NCBI GenBank assembly: GCA_032622095.1
Contig: CP136067.1
Span: forward strand, 180,516,556-180,580,555
Reading direction: 5' to 3'
From: Siphonodentalium dalli
Taxonomy: Eukaryota; Mollusca; Scaphopoda; Gadilida; Siphonodentaliidae
Length of the DNA: 64,000 bases
Positions within the stretch are counted from its first letter, which is position 1; every line of letters starts with the position of its first letter. The position numbers were made by a program, and so were the translations under genes. Positions 5,029-60,996 of the stretch are shown piece after piece. The notes beneath the pieces were generated by a model. It worked only from the letters and a program-made list of their open reading frames with translations, ran no database searches and was not told the origin of the DNA.

Positions 5029-7012
5029 TCACGTAATAAAAGCGGACGACAGATAGTGAAAGTAAAGAAGGAGTCCTATTTGGCTTGAAGAGCTTCTCGT
5101 CTCTGGTTCCTCCACTTCCACAGCATTCCAGAACGCTATTGCCCGAGGGAAGAAGGAAATTTTGTAGACATCTACCCCCGCAATCGTCAGATGGTGCTGG
5201 TGCCCTCTCGTGTTGGCTGTTGTCTTTGTGATGTAATTATCGGCTGGGATACTCGATCGAACATCACCATGTCTGCTATCTATCTGCGACTTTTCAGTGA
5301 TTCCCATCTCAGTTGTTTCTTCATGGCGTGGATGTCACTCTTCCAGTTGTAGTCGTTGGCCACCCACCTAGCTGTCCTGTTCTGCACTTCATGGCGTGGA
5401 TGTCACTCTTCCAGTTGTAGTCGTTGGCCACCCACCTAGCTGTCCTGTTCTGCACTTCATGGCGTGGATGTCACTCTTCCAGTTGTAGTCGTTGGCCACC
5501 CACCTAGCTGTCCTGTTCTGCACTTCATGGCGTGGATGTCACTCTTCCAGTTGTAGTCGTTGGCCACCCACCTAGCTGTCCTGTTCTGCACTTCATGGCG
5601 TGGATGTCACTCTTCCAGTTGTAGTCGTTGGCCACCCACCTAGCTGTCCTGTTCTGCACTTCATGGCGTGGATGTCACTCTTCCAGTTGTAGTCGTTGGC
5701 CACCCACCTAGCTGTCCTGTTCTGCACTTCATGGCGTGGATGTCACTCTTCCAGTTGTAGTCGTTGGCCACCCACCTAGCTGTCCTGTTCTGCACTTCAT
5801 GGCGTGGATGTCACTCTTCCAGTTGTAGTCGTTGGCCACCCACCTAGCTGTCCTGTTCTGCACTTCATGGCGTGGATGTCACTCTTCCAGTTGTAGTCGT
5901 TGGCCACCCACCTAGCTGTCCTGTTCTGCACTTCATGGCGTGGATGTCACTCTTCCAGTTGTAGTCGTTGGCCACCCACCTAGCTGTCCTGTTCTGCACT
6001 TCATGGCGTGGATGTCACTCTTCCAGTTGTAGTCGTTGGCCACCCACCTAGCTGTCCTGTTCTGCACTTCATGGCGTGGATGTCACTCTTCCAGTTGTAG
6101 TCGTTGGCCACCCACCTAGCTGTCCTGTTCTGCACTTCATGGCGTGGATGTCACTCTTCCAGTTGTAGTCGTTGGCCACCCACCTAGCTGTCCTGTTCTG
6201 CACTTCATGGCGTGGATGTCACTCTTCCAGTTGTAGTCGTTGGCCACCCACCTAGCTGTCCTGTTCTGCACTTCATGGCGTGGATGTCACTCTTCCAGTT
6301 GTAGTCGTTGGCCACCCACCTAGCTGTCCTGTTCTGCACTTCATGGCGTGGATGTCACTCTTCCAGTTGTAGTCGTTGGCCACCCACCTAGCTGTCCTGT
6401 TCTGCACTTCATGGCGTGGATGTCACTCTTCCAGTTGTAGTCGTTGGCCACCCACCTAGCTGTCCTGTTCTGCACTTCATGGCGTGGATGTCACTCTTCC
6501 AGTTGTAGTCGTTGGCCACCCACCTAGCTGTCCTGTTCTGCACTTCATGGCGTGGATGTCACTCTTCCAGTTGTAGTCGTTGGCCACCCACCTAGCTGTC
6601 CTGTTCTGCACTTCATGGCGTGGATGTCACTCTTCCAGTTGTAGTCGTTGGCCACCCACCTAGCTGTCCTGTTCTGCACTTCATGGCGTGGATGTCACTC
6701 TTCCAGTTGTAGTCGTTGGCCACCCACCTAGCTGTCCTGTTCTGCACTTCATGGCGTGGATGTCACTCTTCCAGTTGTAGTCGTTGGCCACCCACCTAGC
6801 TGTCCTGTTCTGCACTTTATGGCGTGGATGTCACTCTTCCAGTTGTAGTCGTTGGCCACCCACCTAGCTGTCCTGTTCTGCACTTCATGGCGTGGATGTC
6901 ACTCTTCCAGTTGTAGTCGTTGGCCACCCACCTAGCTGTCCTGTTCTGCACTTTATCTAGAATTCTAGATCGTCGATGTTTGTTTTTGGGTTCCACACAC
7001 TTGCTGCATAAT
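5029..7012 (-). pseudogene. LINE reverse-transcriptase C-terminal remnant, interrupted by a satellite array
   Basis: Read on the minus strand, 6960-7012 gives AASVWNPKTNIDDLE; the array unit gives VQNRTARWVANDYNW and then KSDIHAMK; 5029-5307 gives IPADNYITKT, TRGH and DVYKISFFPRAIAFWN. This order is the familiar C-terminus of the ORF2 protein of CR1/Jockey-type LINEs (a VQNRAARW-like segment followed by TRGH and SFFPR..WN). The frame is broken by an 8-bp insertion making CTAGAATTCTAG near 6958, by a stop and frameshift near 5270-5300, and by the 68-bp array. RT catalytic motifs and the endonuclease are absent. Confidence 0.8.
5319..6950. repeat. Satellite array: 24 tandem copies of a 68-bp unit derived from LINE coding sequence
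   Basis: The unit starts CTTCATGGCGTGGATGTCAC and ends GTCCTGTTCTGCA. The span of 1632 bp is exactly 24 x 68, and copies are almost identical (a C-to-T change turns CTTCAT into CTTTAT near 6815). On the minus strand one unit encodes part of a LINE RT C-terminus. Because 68 is not a multiple of three, the array cannot be one open frame. Confidence 0.97.
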
Positions 7013-44451: not shown

Positions 44452-44632
44452 CTGCCTGACTGTATTCTCTCTGAGAGTAATGGCGTAGAATCGCCAGCTT
44501 CCAGGATATCAAACACATAAATAACAGATGCCTCGTCAACGACGAAGAAAACACATGGTCGACTCTGTGACCATTTAATGCATTTTATACTCTGCCCTCC
44601 AGTCAGCAGTGGCCATGATGTCAACGGCTTCT
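44452..44632 (-). CDS. DYNC2I1: DYNC2I1-like exon j (181 nt)
   Basis: Acceptor CTATTTCACAG, donor GTAAGATATAT. It encodes EKPLTSWPLLTGGQSIKCIK, WSQSRPCVFFVVDEASVIYV and FDILEAGDSTPLLSERIQSG. The WSxxRPxVFxVxDxxSxIYxxD motif of dynein intermediate chains is clear. The good donor shows the gene continues to lower coordinates, but the next exon was not located. Confidence 0.92.
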
Positions 44633-47600
44633 CTGTGAAATAGATCAAGAGTTTAACATGAGAATTAGATCTTCAAGTCACAATGCATAGAAAACCCTTC
44701 CATGACTGGAGCTTCCTGAAAATTTGCGAAAACCATGTGCCAATGCATTCTCTTATATATGCGAGTGTCCCATAGGGAGCCTCGCATAAATAACATTGGC
44801 CTAACAATATTAACCTTGACCTTGTAGGCCAGTACTTTCTCTTATATATGCGAGGCTACCTATGCGAGACTCGCATATATAAGAGAGTGCACTGGCACAG
44901 GATCTTTAATGCTGCACCAGTGTGGCTCCCGTCATGCAAGGGTTAAATAAAGAATTTTCTATCAATTTATTTGAAATAGGTTTTTATTGTTTAGATTACA
45001 ATAAAAATTTTACACAAAAAAATAACTGTTTCGTATTCATCAGGCTAGTTTTTATGTCAGCAATTACCATTCTTAATTTGAATTTTGAGATCATATTATG
45101 TCACTTTAAGAAAGGAATAGTCACCATGAAGTTTTGCAAAAGAAATTTATAAGATAATTAAGACGAACCATGCTTGGTGCTGTAAAGTCTAAGACAACCG
45201 TCTGAGTAGCCAGCCTGTAAAAAATAATGAACAAACATAAAAAATACAGTTGTACATGTAGATTATATTTATTAATTGATCCAAAACCTAAATAAAACAT
45301 AATTAAAGACATATTATGGACTTGTTTAGGTGCGAACAACTGTAAATTAGTTTTCAGGCACTATGCCAACTGGAGAAGTGTAGAAGTCTACTAACATTGC
45401 CAAAAAATGCAAGCAAATCGTCCATACCACTCCATAGAAAACATCATCCACACTATGCTCAATTGTAAATATTTACTTCTTGATTTGGAACGCAACTCTC
45501 GGAGAAAAACTAATGGAAACGATTGCAATAAATTAATATATAAGAATGACGGCGTGTGGTGTCAATTTGGATATAAAATTTATAAAGATAACAACTTTGA
45601 GCAAGTTTATACTCCATATCTATTTGATTACCATGCCAAAGTGTTTCACATGACTTTAAATCAATAAATTGGATGTGAAACTACGTTGTTTGTCTGCATA
45701 AATAAATAGTCCCTAGATAAATAAGACTCTTGGACATGTTCATTGGTGTAAATTTAATGAAATATACTTTCAAACAATATCAATTTTAGTTACAGAAACC
45801 AGTTCTTCTTCATTCCTCGTTTCCCATTTGCAAACAATTTTGAAAGCGTGCAGTTTTTAATTTGTTTTTTATTTTAGGGGCACACACTAACGAAGCATTC
45901 CACCATTGGATCAGTTAGCTGTGGGTGCAATATCAGTTGCCCTTGACCATTATAACCCCAACAAATGTTCACAAAAGTTAGTTGATAGAATCCATATGAT
46001 TCATTTCACCCAATAAAGTATCATTGGCACATTTTTTAATGAATTTGCAGATGCACACGGTCATGTATTAACCCTTTCAGTGCCAGGGGCCGATCTCATC
46101 GGCCCTAATTTACGGTCTGTAAAATCGGCCCTAAAAAAAAAAAATTAAAAATAAATTTCTTTTTTTCAGATTTTTTTGGGTATGCTTAAGCATGCTATAG
46201 CAAATTTAAAAACAAACTGGATAAAACCTTAGGAGCATGTTATAACTCAAAACTATCACCAAGTATTCATAGTAATAATTTTTATGCCCATGAAAAATGT
46301 AAGATTCCCTGGCAATAAACCTACAAAATAAGTCTGTTAAAGAAATTAAGAAAAATTAATTAAAATTGTAAAAAATTGTAAAAAATAATAACAAATGATG
46401 AAAATTGTTAGGCCAATGCATTCTCTTATATATGCGAGGCGACCTATGGTCGACTCGCATATATAAGAGAATGCATTGGCACAGGACTTGGCACTGAAAG
46501 GGTTAATCAGAAATTTTAATCCGGAAATGGGTATGTTCGATCTCAGTTCGGAGCAGGTTTGTATAAACGTACCCAATTATTTTGTACTGATTATAATTTT
46601 TTCCAATAAATAAAATGCAAATGAAAAGATTGCACACACGAGGTTGTGCCCTTAGTAGCTATAGTCCAGTATCAAGAAACTGACGTAGGATAGAATGGTG
46701 CATCCAGATTTATCACAAGAGCCATGTGATATATAATTTAAATGTGTAATACAGATTTGCGAGGAACACAATTGTCATAAAAATAACTACCTTCCTTACC
46801 ACTAGCCTTAAAATAGTGTGTCTGTCATTTGCAGAATGAGGTCCCCAGAGGGTGAAATTAGTGACCAAATTCACCCTCTGAGGACCTCATTCTGCTTAGG
46901 CCTCAACTACAAGGGGAGACCTAGGATCAGATTGATGTTCCCCAGTTGAAGTTGGTGATGTTCACCCCTTAGTCACCTAGCTTTTGCATTTATCTTCTGC
47001 AAATTAAGGAATATAGAAACTGAACAGAAGGGAAAAAGTAACTAAAACAATGTTTAGTTGAGACTAAAGATACTTCCCAGATGAGGCCTAAGCAGAATGA
47101 GGTCCCCAGAGGGTGAATTTAGTGATGCTAGCCCACTGTGCAAGATAGTGTCACTAAATTCACCATCTGGGGGACCTCATTCTACAATTGACAGACACAC
47201 TTTTTACAACTAGCACTACATACTCCTTACAGAAAACATGAGTTTTTACAACTAGCACTACATACTCACCAGAAAACATGAGTTATTGAATGGGGAGAAG
47301 TCCATGTAACTGACATCTACTGGTGTGTCTGAAATGAGGGGAAACAACCCTGGGTTAAAGTATATTTACTGTGATCCAAACAATTTATAGCTGATATGTG
47401 ATGAAATGGGTACAATAGGGAACACATGTCATATAATATAGAAGAGTTCCACTTTCCGGGTGGATTTGCACTGATATAAACATAACTAATCAGCAATAGC
47501 TAAGAGGGTGGTATTTAGTAAATATTATGGAATATCAGAATAATTAGCTGATAGATGACATGATTTCTTTATGCAATTAGCCATCGCCCAATTGAAAAAA

Positions 47601-50600
47601 ATCAGCCATAGTAAAATGGTCAGAGTTTAAGATATAGACTTGAAAAATTCAAATAGGCATATTTTAGTAACTGCTATAGTATTCTATTCCAAGAAGGATA
47701 CCAGCATAACCAGCTACAGTAATGCCCTAAGTAATCGACTCCTTAACTGAGAGCTTTCCGATGAATGGCAACAAGCCATATTTCCGACTAAATCCTGAAA
47801 AGTTACCCATAATTCTGCTGTGGTTAAGGAATCAATTATTTAGGGCATTTCGGTATGTCAACACTGGTTCTTTATCTATATATATTTATATAGGCCTTAT
47901 AATTCTGTTTGAGGGATATTAACAAAGATATACACAGTGATTGTAATTATAATAATACATTTCATTATCTAAATTTCATGGGGAAAACCAGTCTCTTTGA
48001 AAAGCCGTCAAAAATCCAATATCGGATGTACATCTCTTGAACTCTGTATTAAAATTAGATTGCGTATTGAAGGGATTCCCTCCATTTCATTGGAGAGTGG
48101 CACAGACTGAGTGCGATTTCATTGGTTTATGGCATAGTAGATCACGTCAGAGGTCAATGACTTGTTGACAATTTTCCCACGCATTGTCAAACTCAACTAT
48201 GTGGAAAACTGAATACAGGCGATGATATATCCTTAATTCATTTTACTCATCACACAATATAGGAGACATCATCTTTGAGATTTTTTAACAGTCAACGATA
48301 TTTATGACTGATTATTCTTTCACATCTAGTTGTATTTATAACTATTTCTAAATACTACGATTCTCACAAATATTTACTAGGCCAGGAATGCACTCCATAT
48401 TTAGAAACAGTTTATTACGTCATGTTGGGAATTCCATGTTGTTGTAGAAATGAAATATTATGGACACTTCTAGAGAAGTACATCCGATATAGGATTTTCA
48501 TCGGCTTTTCAAAGAGACTGGGGGAAAACATGCAATATGAAAGGCCATCACTAACCAATTAGTTAATAATTAATCCTTTCTAAACTAAATACTAAATACT
48601 CATTGACAAGCAGTTCCCTTTGGAAATGTTTAAACCATAGGTCGTTTGTTGAACTTGTTATCTGAACATTTCCCACCAATGAATATGAATCATTCTGCTC
48701 TTGTATTGTCTGTTTTTCTGCCTGTCACTGCTTTATAAGTTGAACACCCTCTAAATGTATAATAGACCATTCCAATGTATACATTTATAACTGAATGGGA
48801 GAATCCATTCAGTACAGAAAGGGTTAACTGGTTACTTACCTGTTGTGGAACAGTGTAGTTTGGGTTGAACCCTTGAACCAAATCTTATTCCATGCATTAT
48901 ATAACCCTGAAAATACAGCATCAGCAACTATAGTCATATATAGCCATATCATTTCATTGTCAACAACTGAATGCTTGAAGTCATATTCAAACCATAAAAC
49001 TGTGAAGTGTTGCAAAGGGAATAAAAAAGGATGTAGTAATAGAAACTAATCGTTACTATTATCACATATAATTAGCTTGAGTAACACTAGAAAGCAACAT
49101 AAATCAAATTCTCTTTCGCTCTCTGCGAAAAACATTATCATTGAACAATTTGGCAGCACATAAATTTACAAACTCCATGCTGCTCCATGCAGACTTTACC
49201 TCCCTTGATGACTCGGTAAGACCGCTGCTACCGGCGACATTTTACCCAGTTGGTGGACTTCCGCGATATAAATATATATACTAAGCAAACAGAGCAACAT
49301 GTTGGCCTTATTAAGCATAACAAATATCGAACAACATTTGTGTAATTCATACCTTAAGTTAGGAAAGTCCCCCTAGAACCAAAGAACTATATTGCGAAAT
49401 GATTCTTCGATTATTTTATCAACACGAAAGTCAAAATGCACATGGACGACAAAATTTATGGCAAGTCAAACACAAGACTTCTAATTTGCTGCCATTTTGC
49501 TAAGGAGTGTGCGAAAATTGTCGACAAAACTACCGCTCTAATTCTCCATTCTGTCAATAAGTTTTTAGATCGGAAATTGTTCTCAAAGCACATAGGAAAT
49601 TTGGCTTTGGTCGATCGCGGTCTCGCCATTTTGTCTGGAAAAACCCATGCTAAATATAGAAACCATAGAATAGTACCCAGCTGGTGACAGAATCAGAAAG
49701 GAAGTATGACTGGTGCGCTCTGGTAGAGATTGATAAATTTAGATCATGCCATGAATCTCTATTCAAAAGCCTGTAGAGATCATACTCCACCAGTTTAAAA
49801 GCTTGGAACTTTTTTATGTTTTGACAGGGAAGTTTAAAACATTGATTAGACAGTGCAGGTACTATATTTCTTAGTTAACACCTTTTCCTTAATAATACAT
49901 TTCACTGTAAGTGAAGCTTCCAACTCAAAATTGCATGATTTAAGTGACTTTGTGCGATTTTGCTTTCCGTCTCTTACAATCATGGAATTTCTCCCAGGTA
50001 TTCAATGTTTATTGCGATATCAGCTGACAAAAGTCACAAAAAGCATGCAATCTCGAGCTGTGACCACCACCTACTGATAAGTAGATTATTGAGGAATAAG
50101 TAATCACAAAGAAATATATTCCCTTCCCTGTTTGTTCAATGTTATAAAGTTCCCTGTCAGAACGGGTCAGAACATAAAAAAGTTCCTATCAGGTTTTGTA
50201 CTGGTGGAATATGATCTCTACTGGCATAGCTAGAGTAGAGATTCATGGCATGATCTATCGATAAGGGGGCAATTCCATTCATTACGGTCTGCTACAATGG
50301 GTAATGAAAATACAATGGGCAATGAATGGAATGACCAGGGGTAAATACGCCAGGCTATGCTTGCTACACACATGGTGGTGTAACTGCAAGCGTATTGAAA
50401 TGTGACGTCACTTTCTGCGCGAAGATCGGATGTCAACTGAGAAAGCACATGGAAATTATTTATGGTATGGATTAAATGAATTTAATTTTTTATGATTTGT
50501 CATGATTATAAAATATATAATTCTGAAACATATAATTCAATTGGACAACAGTTAAAATTATTTATCCAAAGTTTTAGATACTTAGTGTCAAGGTTGTTCT

Positions 50601-53600
50601 AAAATTAGGTATTTTTATTGTTCGATAAAAGTCAAAATTCTCGTAAGTTTCATTGTGAATATCAATTATCTTTTCTCATTTACTTGTCTTCATCTGTTTG
50701 ACACGCCAGTGTGAGTTTTGTCAAATTTCTTTAATAAAAAAATATGTTGTGTTTGCAGTTGTAACTATGCTGTTTTTAGATTATTCTGGTTACCAAAAAT
50801 CATTTCATTCACTTCGGCCCAGGGTTATTTATCCATTGTAGCCGAGCGTAATGAATGGAATCGCCCCCCTGGTGAACCTTGTCTATGATCCTACTTACCC
50901 CATCCGTAGCCCAGCGTAATGAATGGAATCGCCCCATGGTGAACCTTGTCTATGATCCTACTTACCCCATCCGTAGCCACATAGTACTGATTAAGATCAT
51001 TTGGTGCGGTCTGCATCCCATTCGCCCTGAGGGTGGACTTCATATTCAGACCCCTGAAAAAAAAATTACCAATGCAGTCATAAAACCATGAAAATGAGAG
51101 TGGCATAGATCAGGAGAGCTTACATTATGTGACATCTCATTCTACACCCGCTATGGTGAAGCACTAATGACGATGTCAATGATAATGTAGCTCAAATTGA
51201 AGAAGGGATGATGTCATACAATTACAGTCAATGAAGCAATAAGGAATGTGGAAAGTTTAAATATTTAAATAATACCGGTACTAGAAGTCACCCCAAAGAT
51301 CCATGTGAAGTTTGAGATCAGATGATAAATGTTGGCTGTAATGGGTGCAAAACGATTTAGTCAAGCAAAGAGTAATATCCATGTTTTTCATTGAAAATCA
51401 TTCAAAACTCCCAGAGGTGATCCTACAAGTGCCTGTAAATTCTTAAAGCAATTCTCAAATAAATATGGGCTGCAGGGTGTGCTAATGATGTCAAATTTGA
51501 AATCCAAGATGGCTGCTGACGATGGACACCATCAAGTTGAGCTAAAATTAAGATAATCCATAAAATCCACTGAAACAAACTGAAACTACTTTCCATAAGC
51601 AATGTCACCCTATGGGAGACTCACATATATAAGGGAATGCATTGGCACAGGGTTTTCAAAAAATTTCAGGAAGCTCCAGTCATGAAAGGGTTAATATTAG
51701 CTATCATAGTATCAAATTTGATCTTGAAAAAAACATTTGAAAAGAATAACTTATTACTCACTTTAAAGGTGACTCCAGCACTATTGATGACGTTTTGTGC
51801 AGTTTGACCTTTGAACCCGGAGACAGACCCAGGTCTGTTTCTGATCCAGCAATACCTGAGGAGTTAACTTCAGCAACAACCTTTATAAACAAAGAAATAA
51901 TAATATAATATCAACAATTTTCTACAAATAATACATCCAAGTTTGGAAATAATTCTTTTAAGCCTTTATCCAACAGAAGGGCCCTGTGCCAATGCATTCT
52001 CTTATATATGCGAGTCGACCATAGGTCGCCTCGCATATATAAGAGAATGCATTGGCTTAACACATTAAAAATTATAAAATTGTTAAAGAACGTAAGAAAA
52101 AATGGTAAAAAGTGTTAAAAACATATTTTTTTTAGGCCAATGCATTCTCTTATATATGCGAGGCGACCTATGGTCGACTCGCATATATAAGAGAATGCAT
52201 TGGCACAGGGCATAACTATAACCATCACAATGTGGTCAATGAGCCGGTTCCAATGATATCCATATTTGTATGGTTCTATTGAGACAGACCCAAGATATTT
52301 TAGGCTGTTGAAGCTTTATTTGGCCGGTTTTGGCCGGTTTGTTGGGTAAAGGGTTAAACATATATGTCTTAAATATCACAATTATTACATCTATATTAAT
52401 ATGAATCATACGTGACACATAGTGGGGCAACCACACGTGCTGTGCCTCAAATTTGCCATTTATCGGTGACGTATATAATGCTAAGAATAATTTAAGTAAC
52501 ATCTTGCAGTGGTCAAGCAGAGACGACTGACATGACTTGTCGTGGAATGTGCAATCTTGGCCATCTTGTCTGGATTCTGGCTCCAAAATGACGTAAATGA
52601 TGTCAGAAACCGTGTCACGATATCTTCACTGGTTTTCATTAAGCTAACGAAATTGGCCTAAAATCACATGGGAGTTCTTCATAAGTTGTTAAGTATCGCT
52701 AATTTAATTTCCATCGTGTCTATTTCCGAATCCGCATGTTGGCAATCTCCACACAGTTGCTAACCGGAAGTCACGTGTCAATTTCTCAAAAATCCATACC
52801 CGTGATCTTTGAAAAATCACTGATGGATATAGAAAAAATTATATATCGTCATTCACCTGTGCTGGTGGGGCTATAAGTAATGATCATGCCTGAGAGTATG
52901 GTTGATTGATTGATTGATTGGGGTTTTATGTCGCTTTAGCCACTAAGGCCATATCACGACAATGCCAGTTTTAATGGTGGAGGAAATCCGCACACTTACG
53001 GCTAATCTAACAGTGATTTCAATGGCTGATAAACTCGTCGACCATGTGCGGCAAACCACCGGCCATCGGCAAGTAACTGACAACTTTCCCAGATAACGAT
53101 TTCGAGTTACAAAGTCCACGATGGAAACATGTGGATTTGAACCCTTATCGCCAGCGCTGGAAGGCGAAACGGCTTGGAGTTGTACCCCTAACCGATTGAG
53201 CCACCGAGGCCCCTCTGAGAGTATGGTGCTGGACATTTTCAGTATGTGATCCTCAGAGGGTTAGAATCACTGAATTCATCCTCTGGGAACCTCATTCTGA
53301 ATGGCCTCATCTGCTATGGGAGACCTAGATTTAAGTTCCCAGATCAGTGCCCAGATTGTGAATATTGTGATGTGCACCCATTGGGTACCATGATTATGCA
53401 ATTTGAGGTCCGCCAATTTGGCGATATAGAGAAACTAAACTAAAAAAGAAAAAGAATCTTTCTGAAGATATTTCTAAACTAAAAATAAGATAAGGCCTAA
53501 GTAGAATGTGATCTCTAGAGGGTGCATTTAGTGATGCTAGCCATCTGTGCGGGTTAGGTAACTAAATTCGCCCTCTGGGGACCTCATTCTACAAATGTCC

Positions 53601-56600
53601 AGCACAATATTTTCAGCCATGAGTAGCGATAGGCAACTCAACAATAGCTCCATCTATTCAACCTTTCACATAACTGTTAACAAAATTAGAAACAAACATA
53701 CTCTAACTAGAGGTGAGAGTGTCCCACAAGGGGGAGGTGTTCTCCCCCCACATAGGCTCAATTGGGGTATCTTATTTACAGACAACAAATTTTTTAAGTC
53801 CAAAAGGACTATAATGATATATCCAATCAATTATTTTTTATGAAGCTCAAAACTGAGCCAAATCTAAACATATTCCATTCAACAACCAATATAAATTTAT
53901 TAAAAAGAATTCTGGCCAGCTCTCCTTGCTAACTTCATGAAAAACCAAGAAGTCCTTTTAATGGTAAATACTAAACTGAAGGAAGTGCATATGAAATTCA
54001 CTTTTCCCATGTTGAGTTCAATGTGCCTAAATGCATATTACTGTTCAACAGAGATAAAATGCATTATATATATACAATATGATACAATAATTAAATTTAT
54101 TTGCAAACTGAAGGTCACAGTCTACTTACCCACAGATGTATGACACCATTCTGTTCCACTGATGCAAGTTGAAATGAAAGTCCTGAGCCAAAATCTGCAA
54201 CAATACAATGATTCATACACAGAATACTTCAGAACAAACAATGACAGGTTGATAGTAAAAGTTACTATTTAAAGGCCCACTTAAATTTTTAACCCTTTAC
54301 CCAACAGAACGGCCCTGTGCCAATGCATTATCTTATATATGCGAGTCGACCATAGGTCGCCTCGCATATATAAGAGAATGCATTGGCTTAACACATTAAA
54401 AATTATAAAATTGTTAAAGAATGTAAGAACAAATGGTAAAAAGTGTTAAAAAAAGATTTTTTTTAGGCCAATGCATTCTCTTATATATGCGAGGCGACCT
54501 ATGGTCGACTCGCATATATAAGAGAATGCATTGGCACAGGGCATAACTGTAACTATCACAATGTGGTCAAGGAACCGGTTCCAATGATATCGATATTTGT
54601 ATGGTTCTATTGAGACAGACCGAAGATATTTTAGGCTGTTGAAGCTTTATTTGGCCGGTTTTGGCCGGTTTGTTGGGTAAAGGGTTAACCCCCAGATAAC
54701 ATTATATAAAATATATGACACATTATATACCATATGAAAGAGGAAGCTCCAAAACATTGTATTTTCAACTTATTTGATGTAATAAATTGTGAACATGTTG
54801 TTTTTATTGAGAAACCGGCGTCTGTTCTGTGATCAAGTTTCTGCACAATGTCAATTATTTTCAATGGAAGGGGAATAACTCTATATATTTAAGTTTAGAG
54901 TAATTCCCCTTCCATTGAAAATAAACTAATAGTTTGAATTCTGTTGCATTCTGGAAGCCATAAGGTGGGAAATGATTTTATGATTTCAGCTATTTTCTAT
55001 TACTCTATGGGGCACCACATGAATTGCAAATGGTGATGAATTTTAATCTGATTTTATGGCATATATTGTTATTAAAACCGTATATCAAGGCACTCTATAA
55101 AAAAAAAAATCAGTGACTTGAAAATTAAGTGGGCCTTTAACATTAACCTACATATGGTAGTATGTCTTAATCCATATACCAAATTAGATAACTAAAACTA
55201 AAGTTATCAACCGGAAACCAAAATAATCGGCAAATTCTAAGTCGATAATGACCATAACTCTGGCATAAATGGGCAGACTGATTCGAACTTGACCTGTATT
55301 TTCATGTGGCTATTACACATACAAAATATGAAAACAGTCAGACAACTAAAATTATCATCTGGAAACCAAAATAATTGGCAAATTGTAAGTCGACCAGGAC
55401 CACAACTCCGGCAAAAAATTGCGAGCGGAACCCAAAATCGAACTTGACCTGCATTTTGGGCTAGTAAACTCACATACCAAATGAGATATCTGCTCGGATG
55501 GACAAAAAATCAATGTTTGCAGATAAACAAAGATGAATAACTCTGGAACGGAAAATCTGAACAAAAGGATTCAAATGTCACTCTTTAAAATATTGCAGCG
55601 AATGAACAGCCTTCCGACAAAATTCATTGTGCAATCTTTTGCGCCAGCTTTGATATTCAATAATATTATATTACTAATATATCCCATTCTAAATGACAAT
55701 AGCAGGATGACTCAATCACTCCTTCATAACAATATTTTAACTAATTGCATGCTAATGGAGTTGCTTATCGTGTGCCGTCATGATAAATCATTTTCCTGGA
55801 CATACTATATGTATGATACCGAATTAGTGCGACCTGATTTTGAATAATATTTGTGTGAAATATGATTTTGGATTATCCCTCTTTTGTCAAATTAACAAAG
55901 CGGTAATGGTCAAATACCACTATAATAGTGGAATATCACTATAATAGTGGAATTCAGGATGTGCCTGACCTGATAGTGGTGAACATCCCAAAAATATTTC
56001 ATTGAGATCTGACAACTGGTGGTTGAGATATCTATCGGATGGTTGGAGGATCTGACGCAGGTAATCCAGTATACCTTGGTATTAAAACTGAATAACCATG
56101 AACACTCTATGGCACAAACTTACCATCACTAGGTTTTTCACCGGATTTCAAGCTGAAATTTAAAAAAAAATGTTTTTTATTGTTTTATCAGTAATCTGAG
56201 AGAGTGTCAGCATCTTGAATAATACAATGGCTGAAATTACAATGCGAATCACGATCATAGCTACTCGGGAGTGCACACAGCAGAATTTGTAATTGTTCGA
56301 ATTGACTCCATTGGGTGTTGACCTATTCAAACTTATATGCATTGCATGGACACTGCCATCCCTTCAGTTAAAAATTACTATCTATCATAAACATAAACGG
56401 TTTTAAGTATTTGAAAAATCCAAGCAAGCTTAGCTACCAAGAGGAAGTTTGACTTCCAGTCACCAATTCCCAAATATTCCAAGTGTCTCGGAGTATATTA
56501 ATGGAAGAGTAGCTACGGACCAGTTTCAAACTTTACATCTAAATTACGGAGCATGAGTGGGTTTCCACGTGGTGACTTTGGTAATGTTATGGGTTCACAC

Positions 56601-59600
56601 ACAACACTCTTTTTTAGTTTCCGATACTGGTCATGCATACTACTCAGTTGTTTCGCTAACCTTCCGGTTCAATAATGCAGAATATTTACAAGATGCGCTG
56701 GCAACTCGTAATGTCCACCGAATGTCTCTCAATTTTCGCATGGGTTTCCTCAACGTATGTCACATACTCGCCAAGTTTTCTTTTCCGAGATTGATGACAG
56801 GAATTGGAGCCGAGTCCATTGTCAACAGAATCGTTAGCTACTTGCATATAAATAGAGCAGTATCATGATCCAAACTAGTGTTCGGGTCAGGTCCAGGAGA
56901 TGTTGGAGGCCGAAAATCAATCTTACAACTTTTTAACCAGCTTTTAAGAGACATATTTGCATTATACAGTTGACAGTTTAGGGTTGTATTTCATATGGTG
57001 CAGATAAATAGATGTTAGCTTTGGTAAAAATCCCCATTCACTTTCTTTTTCTTTTTTTTTGCGAATGTGATTTGGGGGGAGCTAGCCCTGGGATGCCCAA
57101 AAGGGCCATTAGGCCCTTTCTTTCACCCCTCCCCATTCACTCATTGATTGCTTTGAGAAGTGAGTACTTTCACCTAGCTTATGTATGCTAAAGTAATACA
57201 ATCCTTTGTTAACATTCTCGATAGTCGACAACAAAAACTTGGACATGCGACATGCTAATTACGCCTGCAGTGCAGATGCACAATTCCGATGGTTCATCGA
57301 GGTGTCTGCACTTCTATAAGTTGGATTTGGTTCTTATTATTGGGGTTTAGATGGGACATTTAGTTCCGGCAAACCTGCGAATTTATGAATCCACGAAAAA
57401 GTCATAAATAGCTGAACCACGAAAATTTATACCAATGAATTTAAAGCCATTCACAGTAGTAATTTGAGCATAAAGATGTTTGAGATGTGTTCTCTCACCT
57501 TTCTAAAGAGACAAGTGGAAGGACTGAGGTGACGGGACTGTGGTGTGTGTCATAGTTAGTAATTTGAGCATAATGATGTTTGAGATGTGTTCTCTCACCT
57601 TTCTAAAGAGACAAGTGGAAGGACTGAGGTGACAGGACTGTGGTGTGTGTCTGAATCCATCAAACCAGCTGAAACAATACAAAATATTATAACTACAGTA
57701 ATGTCCTAAATAATCGACTCCTTAACCACAGCAGAATTATGGGTAACTTTTCAGGATTTAGTCAGAAATATGGCTTCCCTTACAGTTTTGCAGTGTTACA
57801 CCTCGCTGTGAGGTGTGGGTGTGGTGTGATTGAGGTGTGGTACATGATATGCAAATATCTGTAAAGCACACCTTAACCACACCTCATACTTCTACACCAC
57901 ACCTCATCCACACCTCATAGAAATAGTAAAATATCATAGCACACCTCAAACACACCTCAGGTACTCTAACAAAAACAATTTTGCCACAGGCACACTACAA
58001 ACACGCCTCGCAGGTCTGCAACACACCACATGGTATCTATCAAAGTTCCTGGTTTAATGAGGAAGCTAGCCAAGCTGAATTGTATGATCTGATAAACAAA
58101 CATAACATATGGAGCTGGCTAGGTCATGTGGTAGAATTGCGCCAAAATTTATTTGAATGTGGATCCTTTGTTCAGAAGAGTGTAACAATTCTGTATCTCT
58201 CAAGGATTTGAAAAGATACTTCATATCAAAAGTTGTCATTAAATGGAATAAAAGGCATGTGAAACATTAATATACTCTTTGAAAGCAGCTAGGTAAGTAA
58301 CATATCATATAATTTTTTCGATATATTTGATTTTTGCAACTAAATTATAGTATCTATATATAAAGATGTCTGTTAATTACCACTGTGTTTGTATCAAAAC
58401 AATTAAATGGACTTACCAGTGTTGATGGTATTATCTTACATTTGTACAGTGTATACTACACCAATCAAATATTGAAATATGGAAATTGTAAATCATAAGT
58501 ATATGAATTCTTTCAGCATTATATAATTGACTGCATGAATTCTAAAATATAGCGGTGATCATGTCAGGCTAATATAGAATTCATTTATTATAAGCTTTGC
58601 TTTATTGAATTTTTGCCCCAACCCTAAGCCCCTATATATATGACTTGTGCTTCAGTTAACTGCATGCATGGTACCATGCAATATGTCAATTAATATTAGA
58701 CATATGTACATGTATATAGCAAATTCATAGGGTACTAATGATTGAACAAGACTATAAGTCACTTATAATAGTGATCTGAAGCTACTCACGGGAACACATA
58801 TACCTTACTCTTCCAATAGCACTAGGAACACTACTAGGGCACTGATAAAAATAATCAAAAGTCACCAGGAACATGTTCAAAATATATAGAATGAATGCAT
58901 GTGGACAAGACAAAATTAGCCACCTCAATACCCACACCTCAGGCACACCTCTACCTACACCTCAGACACACCTCTACCCACACCTCAGGCACACCTCATA
59001 CCCACACCTCAGGCACACCTCAGTAAGCACTCTTCCATAGGCACACCTCAAGCACACCTCAGACCGTACACATCAGACACATCTCATCCACACCTTAAAC
59101 ACACCTCAGGCACACCTCAAAGGCACACCTCATGCCTCATTTAAATATTTGGCCCCACACCTCAGACACACCTCAACCACACCTTAGGCACACCTCAGCC
59201 CCCACGCCTCGTGTGAGGTGTCCCCACACCTCGTGTGAGGTGTAACACCTCAGCCATCTTTCAGGCCCACACCACAAAAGCACCTTATCCACACCTTAAA
59301 CACACTGCAAAACTATAAGGGTTGTTGCCATGGCTTGTTGCCATTCATTGAAAAGCTCTCACTGACACGGGGGGAGAACTGCAACGTGAGGATCGGTGGC
59401 CTTCCGATAAAGAGACGGTGGAAATCCGATAAACGAGACGGTTCGCTTTCGGTGACAAACGAGATTTTCTTCGTGTTTGGGCATTCAAACGGAATTGCCG
59501 TGACATATCAGGTTTCATATCATCATATAGTTATCTTAGTTACTAATATCCATCAATATCTAGACGCTACAGTGAGTTAAACCAATATAATCGCCATTTA

Positions 59601-60996
59601 AAAGTCACGCGACGGTTTGTTTTCCGATAAAAACGAACCGTCGCGTGTCTTTTATCGGAAAACGAACCGTCGCGTGACTTTTAAATGGCTATTCTCTTGG
59701 TTTTAGTCACTGTAGCGTCTAGATTTTGATGGATATTAGTAACTTAAATAACGATATGATGATATGAAACCTGATTTGTCACGGCAATTGCGTTTGAATG
59801 CCCAAACACGAAGAAAATCTCGTTTGTCGCCGAAAGCGAACCGTCTCGTTTATCGGATTTCCACCGTCTCTTTATCGGAATGCCACCGATCCTCACGTCG
59901 CAGTTCTCCCCCAGTGACTGAGTCGATTATTTAGGGCATTACTGTATATTAATAAACCTGAATGTCTGATTGTTATGCATTATGTTGCTTTCAGCAGAAA
60001 AGGCCATGTTACAATGATGTCAGGAGGATAGGTCATACATAGTCAACAGGCCTCCAAATATTGTGTGTGCCTGTCATTTGCAGAATGAGGTCCCCAGAGG
60101 GTGAATTTAGTTATGCTATCCCGCACAGTGGGCTAGCATCACCAAATTCACCATCTGGGGACCTCATTTTGCTCAGGCCTTATCTTCTGGGAAGTATCTA
60201 TAGTCTCAAATTAACATTGTTTTTAGTTACTTTTTCCCTTCACAGAAGTTTCTATATCCCCATAATTTGCAAAAGATAAAATGCATAATTTAAGGTGACT
60301 AATGGGTGAACATCACCAACTAGGAAACACAATCTGATACTAGGTCTCCCATAGCAGTTATTAGTTGCTTATTGAAGGACATCGTCTCTACAGCAGTGAC
60401 ATGATTTCATTGTGAAGTTAACTGTCAAGTCTGCAAATAGTATGTCTGTCATTTGCAGAATGAGGACCCCAGAGGTTGAATTTGGTGATGCAAGACCACC
60501 ATGCAGGATAGCATCACTAAATTCACCCTCTTGGGACCTCATTCTGCAAATGACAGACATACTATTTGCAGACTTGACAGTTAATTTCACAATGAAATCA
60601 TGTCACTGCTGTAGAGACGATGTCCTTCAATAAGCAACTCATAAACATGCCAAGATGTGCATGCTCTCAGGGGAAAATCACTTCAAGCTTGGTGGGATTT
60701 GATTCTGCTACTGGTCAGCTTGATGGATGAAGCATTTTATTGACTATGGAAGTAAGGATAATATTTCATTGTTTTTTTTGTTGCAATAATTCAGTTATAT
60801 TGTTTTAACTATACAATGGCTAAAATGTCGATAACCCAGCACACATGATATCATTGGGCAGTGATTAAGTCACAAAGAAATATATACCTGTATTATAAGA
60901 TGGAAATCTGGCGATATAGTCTTGGCCTTGCACAGTGACAGATTTGTGCATAGATATCACCTCCCTCGTGTCCCATACAACCAGAGAACCATCCAC
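44452..60996 (-). CDS. DYNC2I1: Dynein-2 intermediate chain WDR60/DYNC2I1-like gene, ten exons of the C-terminal WD40 part
   Basis: Ten exons on the minus strand with AG/GT borders join in one frame with matching phases (815 nt). The product reads as the WD40 part of the dynein-2 intermediate chain, with VDGSLVVWDTRE, LASVEQNGVIHLW, GSKVKL, ATDGGYIMHG, VSYMDFSPF, AGYSDGCLRLY and WSQSRPCVFFVVDEAS-IYVFDIL in the order of WDR60. In animals this protein links the dynein-2 heavy chain to light chains for retrograde intraflagellar transport in cilia. The 5' exons (N-terminal region and first blades) lie beyond 61 kb or outside the window. The last exon(s) after 44452 were not found, even though about 70 codons should follow. 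Introns are packed with MITEs; three exon ends carry downstream tandem duplications. Confidence 0.88.
44693..44946. mobile_element. piggyBac-like MITE, family P3, copy 2
   Basis: ACCCTTCCATGACTGGAGC at the left (TTAA decayed to AAAA) and GCTCCCGTCATGCAAGGGTT + AA at the right. The interior has imperfect GCATTCTCTTATATATGCGAG hairpins. Confidence 0.75.
45169..45214 (-). CDS. DYNC2I1: DYNC2I1-like exon i (46 nt)
   Basis: Acceptor TTTTTTACAG, donor G|GTTCGTC. It encodes AGYSDGCLRLYSTKH and leaves G, joining to AG of exon j to give Glu. The GTTCGT donor is a weak match to GTRAGT; no better GT keeps the frame. Confidence 0.8.
45302..45690. repeat. Dispersed repeat starting TTAAAGACATATTATG
   Basis: Matches 61585-62150 over most of its length. 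This copy lacks the hairpin MITE present there and so shows the empty insertion site (ATTATGGACTTGTTTAGG). An 86-codon frame (45407-45667, +) lies inside but is not kept in the other copy. Confidence 0.7.
46068..46506. mobile_element. piggyBac-like MITE, family P2, complete
   Basis: TTAACCCTTTCAGTGCCAGG and TTGGCACTGAAAGGGTTAA ends with TTAA on both sides. The left half is the family's own sequence (GGCCGATCTCATCGGCC hairpin); the right half is one copy of the GCATTCTCTTATATATGCGAG hairpin module shared with P1 and P3. Confidence 0.85.
46815..47197. mobile_element. Composite MITE family G, reference copy
   Basis: TGTCTGTCATTTGCAGAATG at the left pairs with CATTCTACAATTGACAGACA at the right. 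Each end is a short hairpin (GAGGTCCCCAGAGGGTGAA ... TTCACC...GACCTC), and a spacer of about 200 bp joins them. Confidence 0.8.
47201..47282. repeat. 40-42 bp tandem duplication covering exon h 3' end and donor
   Basis: TTTTTACAACTAGCACTACA at 47201 recurs at 47243, and AGAAAACATGAG at 47231 recurs at 47271. The copies differ at the splice junction: CTG|GTGAGT in the coding copy, CT|GTAAGG in the downstream copy. It lies directly beside MITE family G (46815-47197). Confidence 0.88.
47270..47328 (-). CDS. DYNC2I1: DYNC2I1-like exon h (59 nt)
   Basis: Acceptor CCCTCATTTCAG, donor GTGAGTATG. With the carried G it encodes DTPVDVSYMDFSPFNNSCFL, the (V/I)xxxDFSPF start of a WD40 blade. Its 3' end is duplicated downstream at about 47221-47242. 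Confidence 0.88.
47717..47853. mobile_element. TA-flanked hairpin MITE family H, copy with decayed right tip
   Basis: CAGTAATGCCCTAAGTAATC at the left pairs with GATTCCTTAACC-type complement and GGGCATTTCGG at the right. It corresponds to the near-perfect copy at 61601-61813 but is shorter (one central arm deleted). Confidence 0.7.
47988..48522. mobile_element. MITE with CCAGTCTCTTTGAAAAGCCG ends
   Basis: The left arm CCAGTCTCTTTGAAAAGCCG continues to ATATCGGATGTACATCTCT; the right arm is its complement (CATCCGATATAGGATTTTCA ... CGGCTTTTCAAAGAGACTGG). Arms are about 60 bp with a few mismatches; the spacer is about 410 bp. Confidence 0.75.
48570..48827. mobile_element. TTAA MITE family D, complete copy, next to exon g
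   Basis: TTAATCCTTTCT at the left and AGAAAGGGTTAA at the right with TTAA on both sides. The right end is 12 bp from the last coding base of exon g. Confidence 0.75.
48840..48906 (-). CDS. DYNC2I1: DYNC2I1-like exon g (67 nt)
   Basis: Acceptor TGTATTTTCAG, donor GTAAGTAACC. It encodes GYIMHGIRFGSRVQPKLHC then STT and leaves one base. Twelve bases after the exon end a TTAA MITE (48570-48827) begins, leaving only the minimal donor between. Confidence 0.88.
49436..49687 (+). CDS. Small open frame of 83 codons, unknown, inside a WDR60 intron
   Basis: An ATG-to-TGA frame with protein-like composition (KECAKIVDKTTALILHSVNK; no low-complexity run) in a stretch without recognised repeats, opposite in strand to the host gene. 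No domain, paralogue or promoter motif is recognised. It could be chance, a small gene or an exon of a nested gene. Confidence 0.2.
   Translation: MHMDDKIYGKSNTRLLICCHFAKECAKIVDKTTALILHSVNKFLDRKLFSKHIGNLALVDRGLAILSGKTHAKYRNHRIVPSW
49735..50258. mobile_element. Inverted-repeat element (AGATCATGCCATGAATCTCT ends)
   Basis: AGATCATGCCATGAATCTCT with TAGAGATCATACTCCACCAG at the left pairs with CTGGTGGAATATGATCTCTA ... AGATTCATGGCATGATCT at the right. The left arm of another copy is cut off by the window end at about 63925-64000. Confidence 0.75.
50265..50869. mobile_element. MITE with GGGGGCAATTCCATTCATTA ends
   Basis: GGGGGCAATTCCATTCATTA at the left pairs with TAATGAATGGAATCGCCCCC at the right. 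Arms of about 60 bp include GCTACAATGG. Its right tip is part of the tandem duplication at exon f. Confidence 0.75.
50831..50977. repeat. 67-68 bp tandem duplication of exon f 3' end, donor and adjoining MITE tip
   Basis: GGTGAACCTTGTCTATGATC occurs at 50871 and 50938, and GTAGCC at 50838, 50906 and 50973 marks the borders. Each unit contains the donor CTTACCCCATCC (plus strand) and the GCGTAATGAATGGAATCGCC end of the MITE at 50265-50869. The GTAGCC shared by exon and MITE looks like junction microhomology. Confidence 0.88.
50966..51053 (-). CDS. DYNC2I1: DYNC2I1-like exon f (88 nt)
   Basis: Acceptor TTTTTTTTCAG, donor GTAAGTAGGATC. It encodes GLNMKSTLRANGMQTAPNDL then NQYYVATDG, the blade segment that in dynein intermediate chains ends in (V/I)(A/G)TD. 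Its 3' end and donor are tandemly duplicated downstream (50831-50967). Confidence 0.9.
51600..51694. mobile_element. piggyBac-like MITE, family P3, right end only
   Basis: CACATATATAAGGGAATGCA, then AGCTCCAGTCATGAAAGGGT and the terminal TTAA. The left part is missing. Confidence 0.6.
51762..51880 (-). CDS. DYNC2I1: DYNC2I1-like exon e (119 nt)
   Basis: Acceptor TTTATAAAG, donor GTGAGTAATAA. It encodes VVAEVNSSGIAGSETDLGLS, PGSKVKLHKTSSI and VLESPLK. The IAGSxSDLGLxPGxxVKL signature is the stretch I associate most specifically with WDR60 (from memory, no search done). Confidence 0.9.
51958..52357. mobile_element. piggyBac-like MITE, family P1, copy 3 (inverted relative to copies 1-2)
   Basis: TTAAGCCTTTATCCAACAG at the left and TTGGGTAAAGGGTTAA at the right, 400 bp, twin hairpins intact. 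Confidence 0.88.
52903..53215 (-). mobile_element. tRNA-derived SINE with perfect 12-bp target duplication
   Basis: The minus strand starts GGCCTCGGTGGCTCAATCGG (A-box region of a tRNA) and has GGGTTCAAATCC as B box about 45 bases on. A conserved body follows (GATGGCCGGTGGTTTGCCG; AAACTGGCATTGTCGTGATA), and it ends in (AATC)n. TGAGAGTATGGT at 52891-52902 is repeated at 53216-53227, a clean LINE-type target-site duplication. It landed at the left end of a family G MITE. The head is a SINE promoter, not a functional tRNA gene. Confidence 0.92.
53228..53600. mobile_element. Composite MITE family G, copy 5, left end disturbed by the SINE
   Basis: CCTCAGAGGGTTAGAATCAC at the left and GGGACCTCATTCTACAAATG at the right with the usual spacer. 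Confidence 0.65.
54130..54194 (-). CDS. DYNC2I1: DYNC2I1-like exon d (65 nt)
   Basis: Acceptor TATTGTTGCAG, donor GTAAGTAGAC. It encodes DFGSGLSFQLASVEQNGVIH then LW, a canonical WD40 blade ending as in WDR60, and ends in phase 0. Confidence 0.9.
54289..54688. mobile_element. piggyBac-like MITE, family P1, copy 4
   Basis: TTAACCCTTTACCCAACAG at the left and TTGGGTAAAGGGTTAA at the right, 400 bp, twin hairpins intact. It is inserted into a TTAA within another element. Confidence 0.9.
54845..54925. repeat. Hairpin, 28-bp arms
   Basis: TTCAATGGAAGGGGAATAAC at the left pairs with TAATTCCCCTTCCATTGAA at the right, with a loop of about 15 bases. It sits in the middle of the host element 54269-55140. 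Confidence 0.75.
55212..55500. repeat. Two tandem copies of a roughly 150-bp dispersed repeat unit
   Basis: GGAAACCAAAATAATCGGCA at 55212 and GGAAACCAAAATAATTGGCA at 55361; each is followed by AAGTCGA and by TCGAACTTGACCTG. It is related in wording to the insert at 22370-22500. Confidence 0.65.
56124..56152 (-). CDS. DYNC2I1: DYNC2I1-like microexon c (29 nt)
   Basis: Acceptor AAATTTCAG, donor GTAAGTTTG. The phase fits both neighbours: AG|C gives Ser, then LKSGEKPSD. At 29 nt it is short for an animal exon, but both splice sites are good and the frame only works with it included. Confidence 0.8.
57458..57650. repeat. 100-bp tandem duplication covering exon b and its 5' splice site
   Basis: AGTAATTTGAGCATAAAGAT at 57458 and AGTAATTTGAGCATAATGAT at 57558 give a period of 100 bp. 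The copies differ at only a few positions. Both keep the donor ACCTTTCTAAAG (plus strand); only the upstream-in-transcript copy keeps the acceptor. Confidence 0.92.
57599..57650 (-). CDS. DYNC2I1: DYNC2I1-like exon b (52 nt)
   Basis: Acceptor GGATTCAG, donor GTGAGAGAAC. With the G left by exon a it reads DTHHSPVTSVLPLVSLE, and it leaves AG for exon c. A 100-bp tandem copy of this exon and its donor sits downstream at 57499-57550, but there TATG replaces the acceptor AG, so only this copy should be recognised as an exon start. Confidence 0.8.
57783..59315. mobile_element. Nested TA-flanked element carrying a CACACCTCA minisatellite
   Basis: CAGTTTTGCAGTGT at the left and ACACTGCAAAACTA at the right with TA beside each. 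Near the left end TGAGGTGTGG units run in one orientation; from about 58918 to 59310 CACACCTCAGGCACACCTCA units run in the other. The middle (58000-58900) holds no recognised domain. Confidence 0.75.
59352..59930. repeat. Near-perfect palindrome of about 580 bp
   Basis: GGGGAGAACTGCAACGTGAG at the left pairs with CTCACGTCGCAGTTCTCCCC at the right. The centre near 59640 is a chain of CGAACCGTCGCGTG hairpins. It is a foldback insertion inside family H. Confidence 0.85.
60068..60357. mobile_element. Composite MITE family G, copy 6
   Basis: CCTGTCATTTGCAGAATGAG and the terminal hairpin at the left; the spacer runs in the opposite orientation compared with 46815-47197 and ends near TAGGTCTCCCATAGCAG. 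Confidence 0.65.
60365..60642. repeat. 278-bp near-perfect hairpin containing family G tips
   Basis: TTGCTTATTGAAGGACATCG at the left pairs with CGATGTCCTTCAATAAGCAA at the right; the two arms stay complementary through CAAATAGTATGTCTGTCATT to a centre near 60503. Confidence 0.9.
60888..60996 (-). CDS. DYNC2I1: DYNC2I1-like exon a (109 nt)
   Basis: Acceptor CCCCACAG, donor GTATATATTTC. It starts in phase 0 and leaves one base. It encodes VDGSLVVWDTREVISMHK and then QDYIARFPSYNT, a WD40 blade end followed by the blade-linking segment of dynein intermediate chains. Confidence 0.88.

Follow-up and report, generated by a model that had tools for sequence, protein, structure and literature searches.

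The WDR60 Gene and Its Exons

The window, as we will refer to the whole stretch of DNA analyzed here, consists of 64,000 nucleotides from the scaphopod mollusk Siphonodentalium dalli (GCA_032622095.1, contig CP136067.1, positions 180,516,556 to 180,580,555) and is part of a 2.23-Gb assembly made up of 9 contigs of 190-301 Mb. It contains, on the minus strand, the WDR60 (DYNC2I1) gene, in which several exons carry local tandem duplications extending across the 5′ splice site, or donor. The assignment of the gene is based on the joined window exons, which match residues 718-995 of the human WDR60/DYNC2I1 chain (E 5.7e-48), while a Pfam scan of the same joined peptide returned no family at 0.001. 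Splice sites and reading frame served to place nine exons within the window, lettered a to j with e omitted. Four more exons (z1-z4) lie upstream of the window and were located by reading region L139; joined to exon a, they match residues 600-746 of the human chain (E 9e-22). The window exons are as follows:

60888..60996, minus strand: exon a (splice sites and frame), without a donor-spanning array
57599..57668, minus strand: exon b (splice sites, frame and homology to human WDR60)
54130..54194, minus strand: exon c (splice sites and frame), without a donor-spanning array
51762..51880, minus strand: exon d (splice sites and frame), without a donor-spanning array
50966..51053, minus strand: exon f (splice sites and frame)
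48840..48906, minus strand: exon g (splice sites and frame), without a donor-spanning array
47270..47328, minus strand: exon h (splice sites and frame)
45169..45214, minus strand: exon i (splice sites and frame), without a donor-spanning array
44452..44632, minus strand: exon j (splice sites and frame), without a donor-spanning array

The reading phases of b and c are incompatible, and a small exon hidden from this map is therefore probably located between them (54194-57599).

Tandem Duplications across the Donors of Exons b, f, h and z2

The initial annotation of this region described direct duplications at exons b, f and h in which the copied unit includes the end of the exon and its donor. 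Letter-for-letter comparison of the copies bears out this description, as each of the three exons has a direct tandem duplication whose unit comprises the 3′ end of the exon and the donor and continues into the intron. At exon b, two copies of 95 bp that are 98% identical are separated by a 5-base spacer, giving a period of 100 (57457-57651). The duplication at exon f is composed of 67 and 68 bp (50844-50978), its downstream part taking in about 28 nt of a dispersed element's tip, and that at exon h of 40 and 42 bp (47201-47282). Their parts are:

57557..57651, minus strand: duplication b, copy 1, with 53 nt of exon b, the donor and the start of the intron
57552..57556, minus strand: duplication b, spacer of 5 bases, which accounts for a period of 100 with a unit of 95
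57457..57551, minus strand: duplication b, copy 2, intronic, with an identical donor
50912..50978, minus strand: duplication f, copy 1, with 13 nt of exon f, the donor, the start of the intron and the element tip
50844..50911, minus strand: duplication f, copy 2, joined to the remainder of the dispersed element
47243..47282, minus strand: duplication h, copy 1, with 13 nt of exon h and the donor, 27 nt being intronic in all
47201..47242, minus strand: duplication h, copy 2, with an altered donor (GT to TAAG)

A fourth case is found at exon z2, 6 kb past the end of the window, where the last 44 nt of the exon and its donor are present in three copies. In addition, a short array starts at most 10 bp past the z3 donor, the donor itself not being covered. 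The further proposal that every duplication supplies a second donor in tandem holds for b and f but fails for h, where the change from GT to TAAG in copy 2 lowers the donor score from 5.9 to 0.2 (the score was built from generic donor frequencies). The location of the extra copy downstream in the transcript, which had also been put forward, is correct as a position but uninformative, because in any direct duplication across a donor it is always the upstream copy that adjoins the exon.

Genome queries over b and h match their own locus only. For f there are three exact 34-mer matches in the genome, two of them being the WDR60 copies and the third a partial copy on contig C3. Since the duplication junction recurs in this partial copy, an assembly error at duplication f is unlikely. 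An introner or other dispersed element was also considered as the source of the units and was rejected for b and h, whose queries have a single genome match each; f has the one extra partial copy.

The partial copy on C3 (C3:127820359-127820461, L002:2960-3062) measures 103 bp and corresponds to about 1.5 units of duplication f, including the copy-to-copy junction. A few bases separate it from the end of a sequence also found in the window near 22.6 kb, and both half-units of the partial copy read CTCACC, the two WDR60 copies reading TTCACC. A WDR60 intron also contains an array (L139:3168-4609), with 24 copies of a 60-bp unit (98%), that starts right beside a miniature inverted-repeat transposable element (MITE)-like element, as judged by eye.

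Frequency of Donor-Spanning Arrays in WDR60 and in Other Genes

Over the thirteen exons placed, arrays cover four donors and none of the 13 acceptors in WDR60. Circular shifts, applied to a test span of 27.8 kb that holds 11 local arrays without much dispersed sequence, predict 1.3 covered donors (p 0.009), a value that is optimistic inasmuch as the gene was chosen post hoc, for its pattern. Exon h was scored as covered with 8 of 9 test positions, and a stricter label marks z2, b and f alone.

The background was estimated from a survey of kinesin motor and dynein heavy chain genes, comprising 136 regions, 208,337 bp and 171 exon matches. The matches were hand-picked (81 of 89 for dynein and 90 of 123 for kinesin), with near-identical paralogues and some of the lower-scoring kinesin matches being dropped. 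A second sample, also hand-picked, consisted of 40 regions from ubiquitin-hydrolase (28 of 63) and myosin-head (12 of 85) matches. Donors were called at a score of at least 0.5, which was attained in 139 of 171 exons of the first survey and 32 of 40 of the second sample; acceptor counts refer to 149 of the 171 exons. Array coverage at called donors was determined with a k-mer measure after removal of dispersed repeats. Region L016, covered by a dispersed element only, was not counted, and L058 and L092, in which an array lies across the match end without an accepted donor call, are outside the covered donors given below. The donor calls in L130 and L141 are doubtful.

In the first survey, 12 of 171 exon matches had an array lying over their end according to Tandem Repeats Finder, and by the k-mer measure 12 of 139 called donors were covered (2/65 in dynein and 10/74 in kinesin genes; 6/92 and 5/66 when the donor cut-off was raised to 3 and 4, respectively). 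Circular shifts predict 6.5 covered donors (p 0.014), rising to 8.2 (p 0.08) once dispersed sequence is compressed out, so that donors exceed the background by a factor of no more than about two, and not robustly. Covered acceptors number 8 of 149 versus 6.6 expected, some of the runs barely reaching the AG, and exon middles are depleted (3/171 versus 7.6 expected, p 0.035). The second sample yielded a single covered donor among 32, with a doubtful call, bringing the pooled figure to 13 of 171 called donors. Local arrays make up 4.5% of the 208-kb gene-proximal survey, dispersed repeats removed.

Measured against this pooled rate, P is 0.026 for the three of nine donors in the window and 0.014 for four of 13 in the whole set. 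The earlier statement that three of ten exons is far more than expected by chance thus survives as an excess, though one seen in nine exons and in a gene picked post hoc, and 'far more' overstates it. The genome that emerges from these counts is rich in local tandem arrays: donors are hit at the level of introns or up to about twice as often, exon interiors are hit less and WDR60 is on the high side.

Fate of the Downstream Donors

Extension past exons z2, b and h meets an in-frame stop after 36, 1 and 9 nt, respectively, before the second donor is reached. At exon f the frame stays open to the next donor, and a unit of 67, not being a multiple of three, shifts the frame. Use of a downstream donor would therefore lead to a stop or a frameshift in all four WDR60 cases. 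The same is frequently observed in the ten survey arrays examined for frames (L058, L092, L114 and L115 being outside this set): a stop precedes the second donor in seven (L021, L062, L103, L125, L128, L131 and the doubtful L130), two shift the frame (L052, L066) and one has lost its second donor (L133).

Nevertheless, b, f, z2 and 8 of the 10 survey arrays have a second donor whose score exactly equals that of the first, weakened donors being found in copy 2 of h, copy 3 of z2, L131 and L133. Unit length is a multiple of three in 3 of the 12 units compared. The stops and frameshifts indicate that use of the downstream donors is disfavored; reading from frames and scores, the spliceosome would either prefer the upstream of two equal donors, or the products of downstream use would be degraded.

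Origin and Maintenance of the Arrays

The donor-spanning arrays are probably conditionally tolerated minisatellites, mostly of low copy number, that happen to lie across 5′ splice sites, comparable to the structures known as 'mirages'. Local tandem duplications are common in this genome, and those whose copies fall inside exons would be removed by selection, as the depletion of exon middles, at a modest p, suggests. A copy that spans a donor could be tolerated, as the copy joined to the exon retains both a complete exon and a complete donor. Provided that the 5′-most donor is used, as frames and stops suggest, the mRNA would be unchanged and the remainder of the array would be ordinary intron. 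Such arrays may also stay recognizable for longer, one of their copies being held by coding constraint. General tolerance predicts that acceptors are hit too, as is the case in the survey.

The breakpoints would be consistent with more than one route of duplication. At f, short homology exists between the exon end (GGCTACGGATGG) and the nearby element tip (GGCTACAATGG), and it was probably this chance resemblance that set the breakpoint. The 5-base spacer at b suggests filler of the kind left by end joining, and at h only about 2 bases of possible homology can be recognized by eye. This mixture would fit end joining together with template switching rather than one dedicated mechanism.

Several observations weigh against tolerated minisatellites as a sufficient account. 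First, the excess at WDR60 donors, with no acceptor covered, is not explained by tolerance alone. Second, array starts reach a density of 0.94 per kb (10 starts) over the final 80 nt of exons, compared with about 0.4 per kb (25 starts, about 63 kb) over the initial 640 nt of introns, an excess that could arise if arrays with a coding copy stay detectable for longer. Third, when donor calling is dispensed with, a non-dispersed array is met at 14-16 of 171 match ends in the 20-nt bins between −20 and +60, save for 13 in the last bin, compared with 4-9 of 171 in the bins at +200 to +580; leaving the dispersed repeats in flips this order (16-24 versus 20-40 in the same 20-nt bins). Finally, donor hexamers in the downstream copies are slightly better kept (6 mismatches in 144 positions) than the exon part (82/997) or the intron part (24/284) of the units, a difference that is based on few arrays (12).

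An alternative, which we regard as unlikely, is that donors are real hotspots, exon-intron junctions being duplicated more often by a transcription- or splicing-linked process (R-loops, a stalled polymerase, U1-bound nascent RNA). It also seems doubtful that 5′ splice sites constitute a mutational hotspot of this lineage, with a sizeable share of exons ending in two to twenty near-identical donors of which the first alone is used. A hotspot would account for the WDR60 pattern, the survey excess over circular shifts and the denser array starts at exon ends, and it would fit the genome-wide count of donor-motif pairs 30-60 bp apart (1138, versus 449 for the reversed motif). However, the survey excess loses significance when dispersed repeats are compressed out, the second sample and the dynein genes alone give only 1/32 and 2/65, and a longer detectable life of coding-copy arrays could by itself yield about two-fold. 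As for the motif pairs, among the places listed a few long arrays dominate the count and two dispersed families dominate the control, so that the comparison decides nothing.

The initial annotation also pointed to MITE ends beside two of the three duplications, which is confirmed with ends determined by eye: f enters the tip of one element and h abuts another.

50266..50871, strand not assigned: MITE-like dispersed inverted-repeat element downstream of exon f (ends and terminal inversion by eye)
46817..47206, strand not assigned: MITE-like element abutting duplication h, with related copies in the window (ends by eye)

The dispersed nature of the former is reflected in the f query, 38 of whose 40 scored genome matches fall in its first 63 bases, the element part. 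It is, however, improbable that MITE hairpins give rise to the duplications, with forks stalling or templates being switched next to the element, in spite of this proximity and of the short homology between tip and exon end at f. No abutting element was seen by eye at the intronic edges of b and z2, and of 194 survey array ends 19% had dispersed sequence no farther than 30 bp away, compared with 17% of 2103 random non-repeat positions, as determined with a rough repeat mask. Hence, of the recurrent local mechanism put forward earlier, the recurrence stands, given the fourth WDR60 array at z2 and those in unrelated genes, but the MITE as its general cause is not supported. A MITE target-site duplication was rejected, as in f and h the element has both copies to one side rather than one at each flank.

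It is highly improbable that selection, which had also been suggested, maintains the tandem donors, whether as backup 5′ splice sites in long introns or as alternative sites under regulation, because the equal scores of most second donors and the somewhat better kept hexamers are set against the interrupted or shifted frame of every WDR60 case, the weakened donors in h, z2, L131 and L133 and the scarcity of units divisible by three. Taken together, the donor-spanning arrays are a real and recurrent structure for which there is no convincing need to invoke a MITE-driven mechanism or selection on tandem donors.

Relation to Known Systems

The term mirage was coined in cephalochordates, and the amphioxus genome amounts to about 0.5 Gb in 19 chromosomes, figures that do not fit the present assembly. 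A search for one lineage marker, the mollusk haemocyanin domain, gave no match, in a run lacking a control, and is uninformative. Such arrays are reported in amphioxus for Adh3 and the globins BflGb6 and BflGb9 by a 2010 paper (PMC3087553), to which a 2013 paper added PGBD5 and troponin C (TnC) (PMC3902484). Their units range from 10 to about 160 bp, and an authentic exon is reported to lie beside unused copies with splicing undisturbed (PMC3087553, PMC3902484).

The units of b, f, h and z2 are likewise composed of exon sequence, a splice site and intron sequence, and the splice signal is retained in repeats, at an undiminished score in the second copies of b, f and z2 and in weakened form in copy 2 of h and copy 3 of z2. 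The structure is best filed with the amphioxus mirages already described, which it resembles. The present case differs in residing in a 2.23-Gb genome assembled in 9 contigs and in coming with a first survey rate, and its scope is one assembly read from sequence alone, normal splicing being suggested by frames and stops. Mirage-type donor arrays in another animal did not appear among the matches listed from the open-access literature, which consist mostly of titles and openings of abstracts.

A second related system is intron gain by tandem duplication, exemplified by ATP2A1 and the potato RNA-dependent RNA polymerase (RdRp), in the latter of which a tandem duplication across an intron-exon boundary is reported to have created a new intron (PMC4974935). 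Both systems have in common a short tandem duplication with splice signals inside a gene. In WDR60, by contrast, the duplications span an existing donor, the exon count is unchanged as far as homology shows and a new intron is not evident. Intron gain is accordingly not indicated, as the joined exons run in line with human WDR60 and no additional coding segment was recognized between the copies. Introners share with the present arrays the presence of repeated sequence at splice junctions and differ in that the b, f and h units are local sequence that belongs to no dispersed family.

Engineered duplications have mostly been used to study which of several equivalent 5′ splice sites the spliceosome selects. 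The main use of the WDR60 finding is as a natural test of the choice that the splicing machinery makes between identical signals, and with about 13 of 171 sampled donors tandemly repeated, often with equal strength, many natural cases of donor choice would be at hand. Donor arrays also represent raw material to test whether intron gain begins there, as was proposed by the authors of the amphioxus globin study (PMC3087553).

Other Arrays and Clusters

Four separate arrays on contig C1, near 24.34, 28.09, 95.77 and 257.63 Mb, have a common unit core, AACCAATACAGGTAAGT, with periods of 33-57 bp, which suggests a donor-bearing unit present at several places. Within the window, 24 copies of a 68-bp unit with 99% matches occupy positions 5319-6953. 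This array was rejected as donor-spanning, as its flanks translate into what we take to be the end of a LINE-type (long interspersed nuclear element) reverse transcriptase, and it is seemingly a minisatellite inside a retroelement. Lastly, at least 11 closely spaced and similar matches to one part of the myosin head family, located at 274.2-275.5 Mb of contig C4, probably represent a tandem gene cluster.

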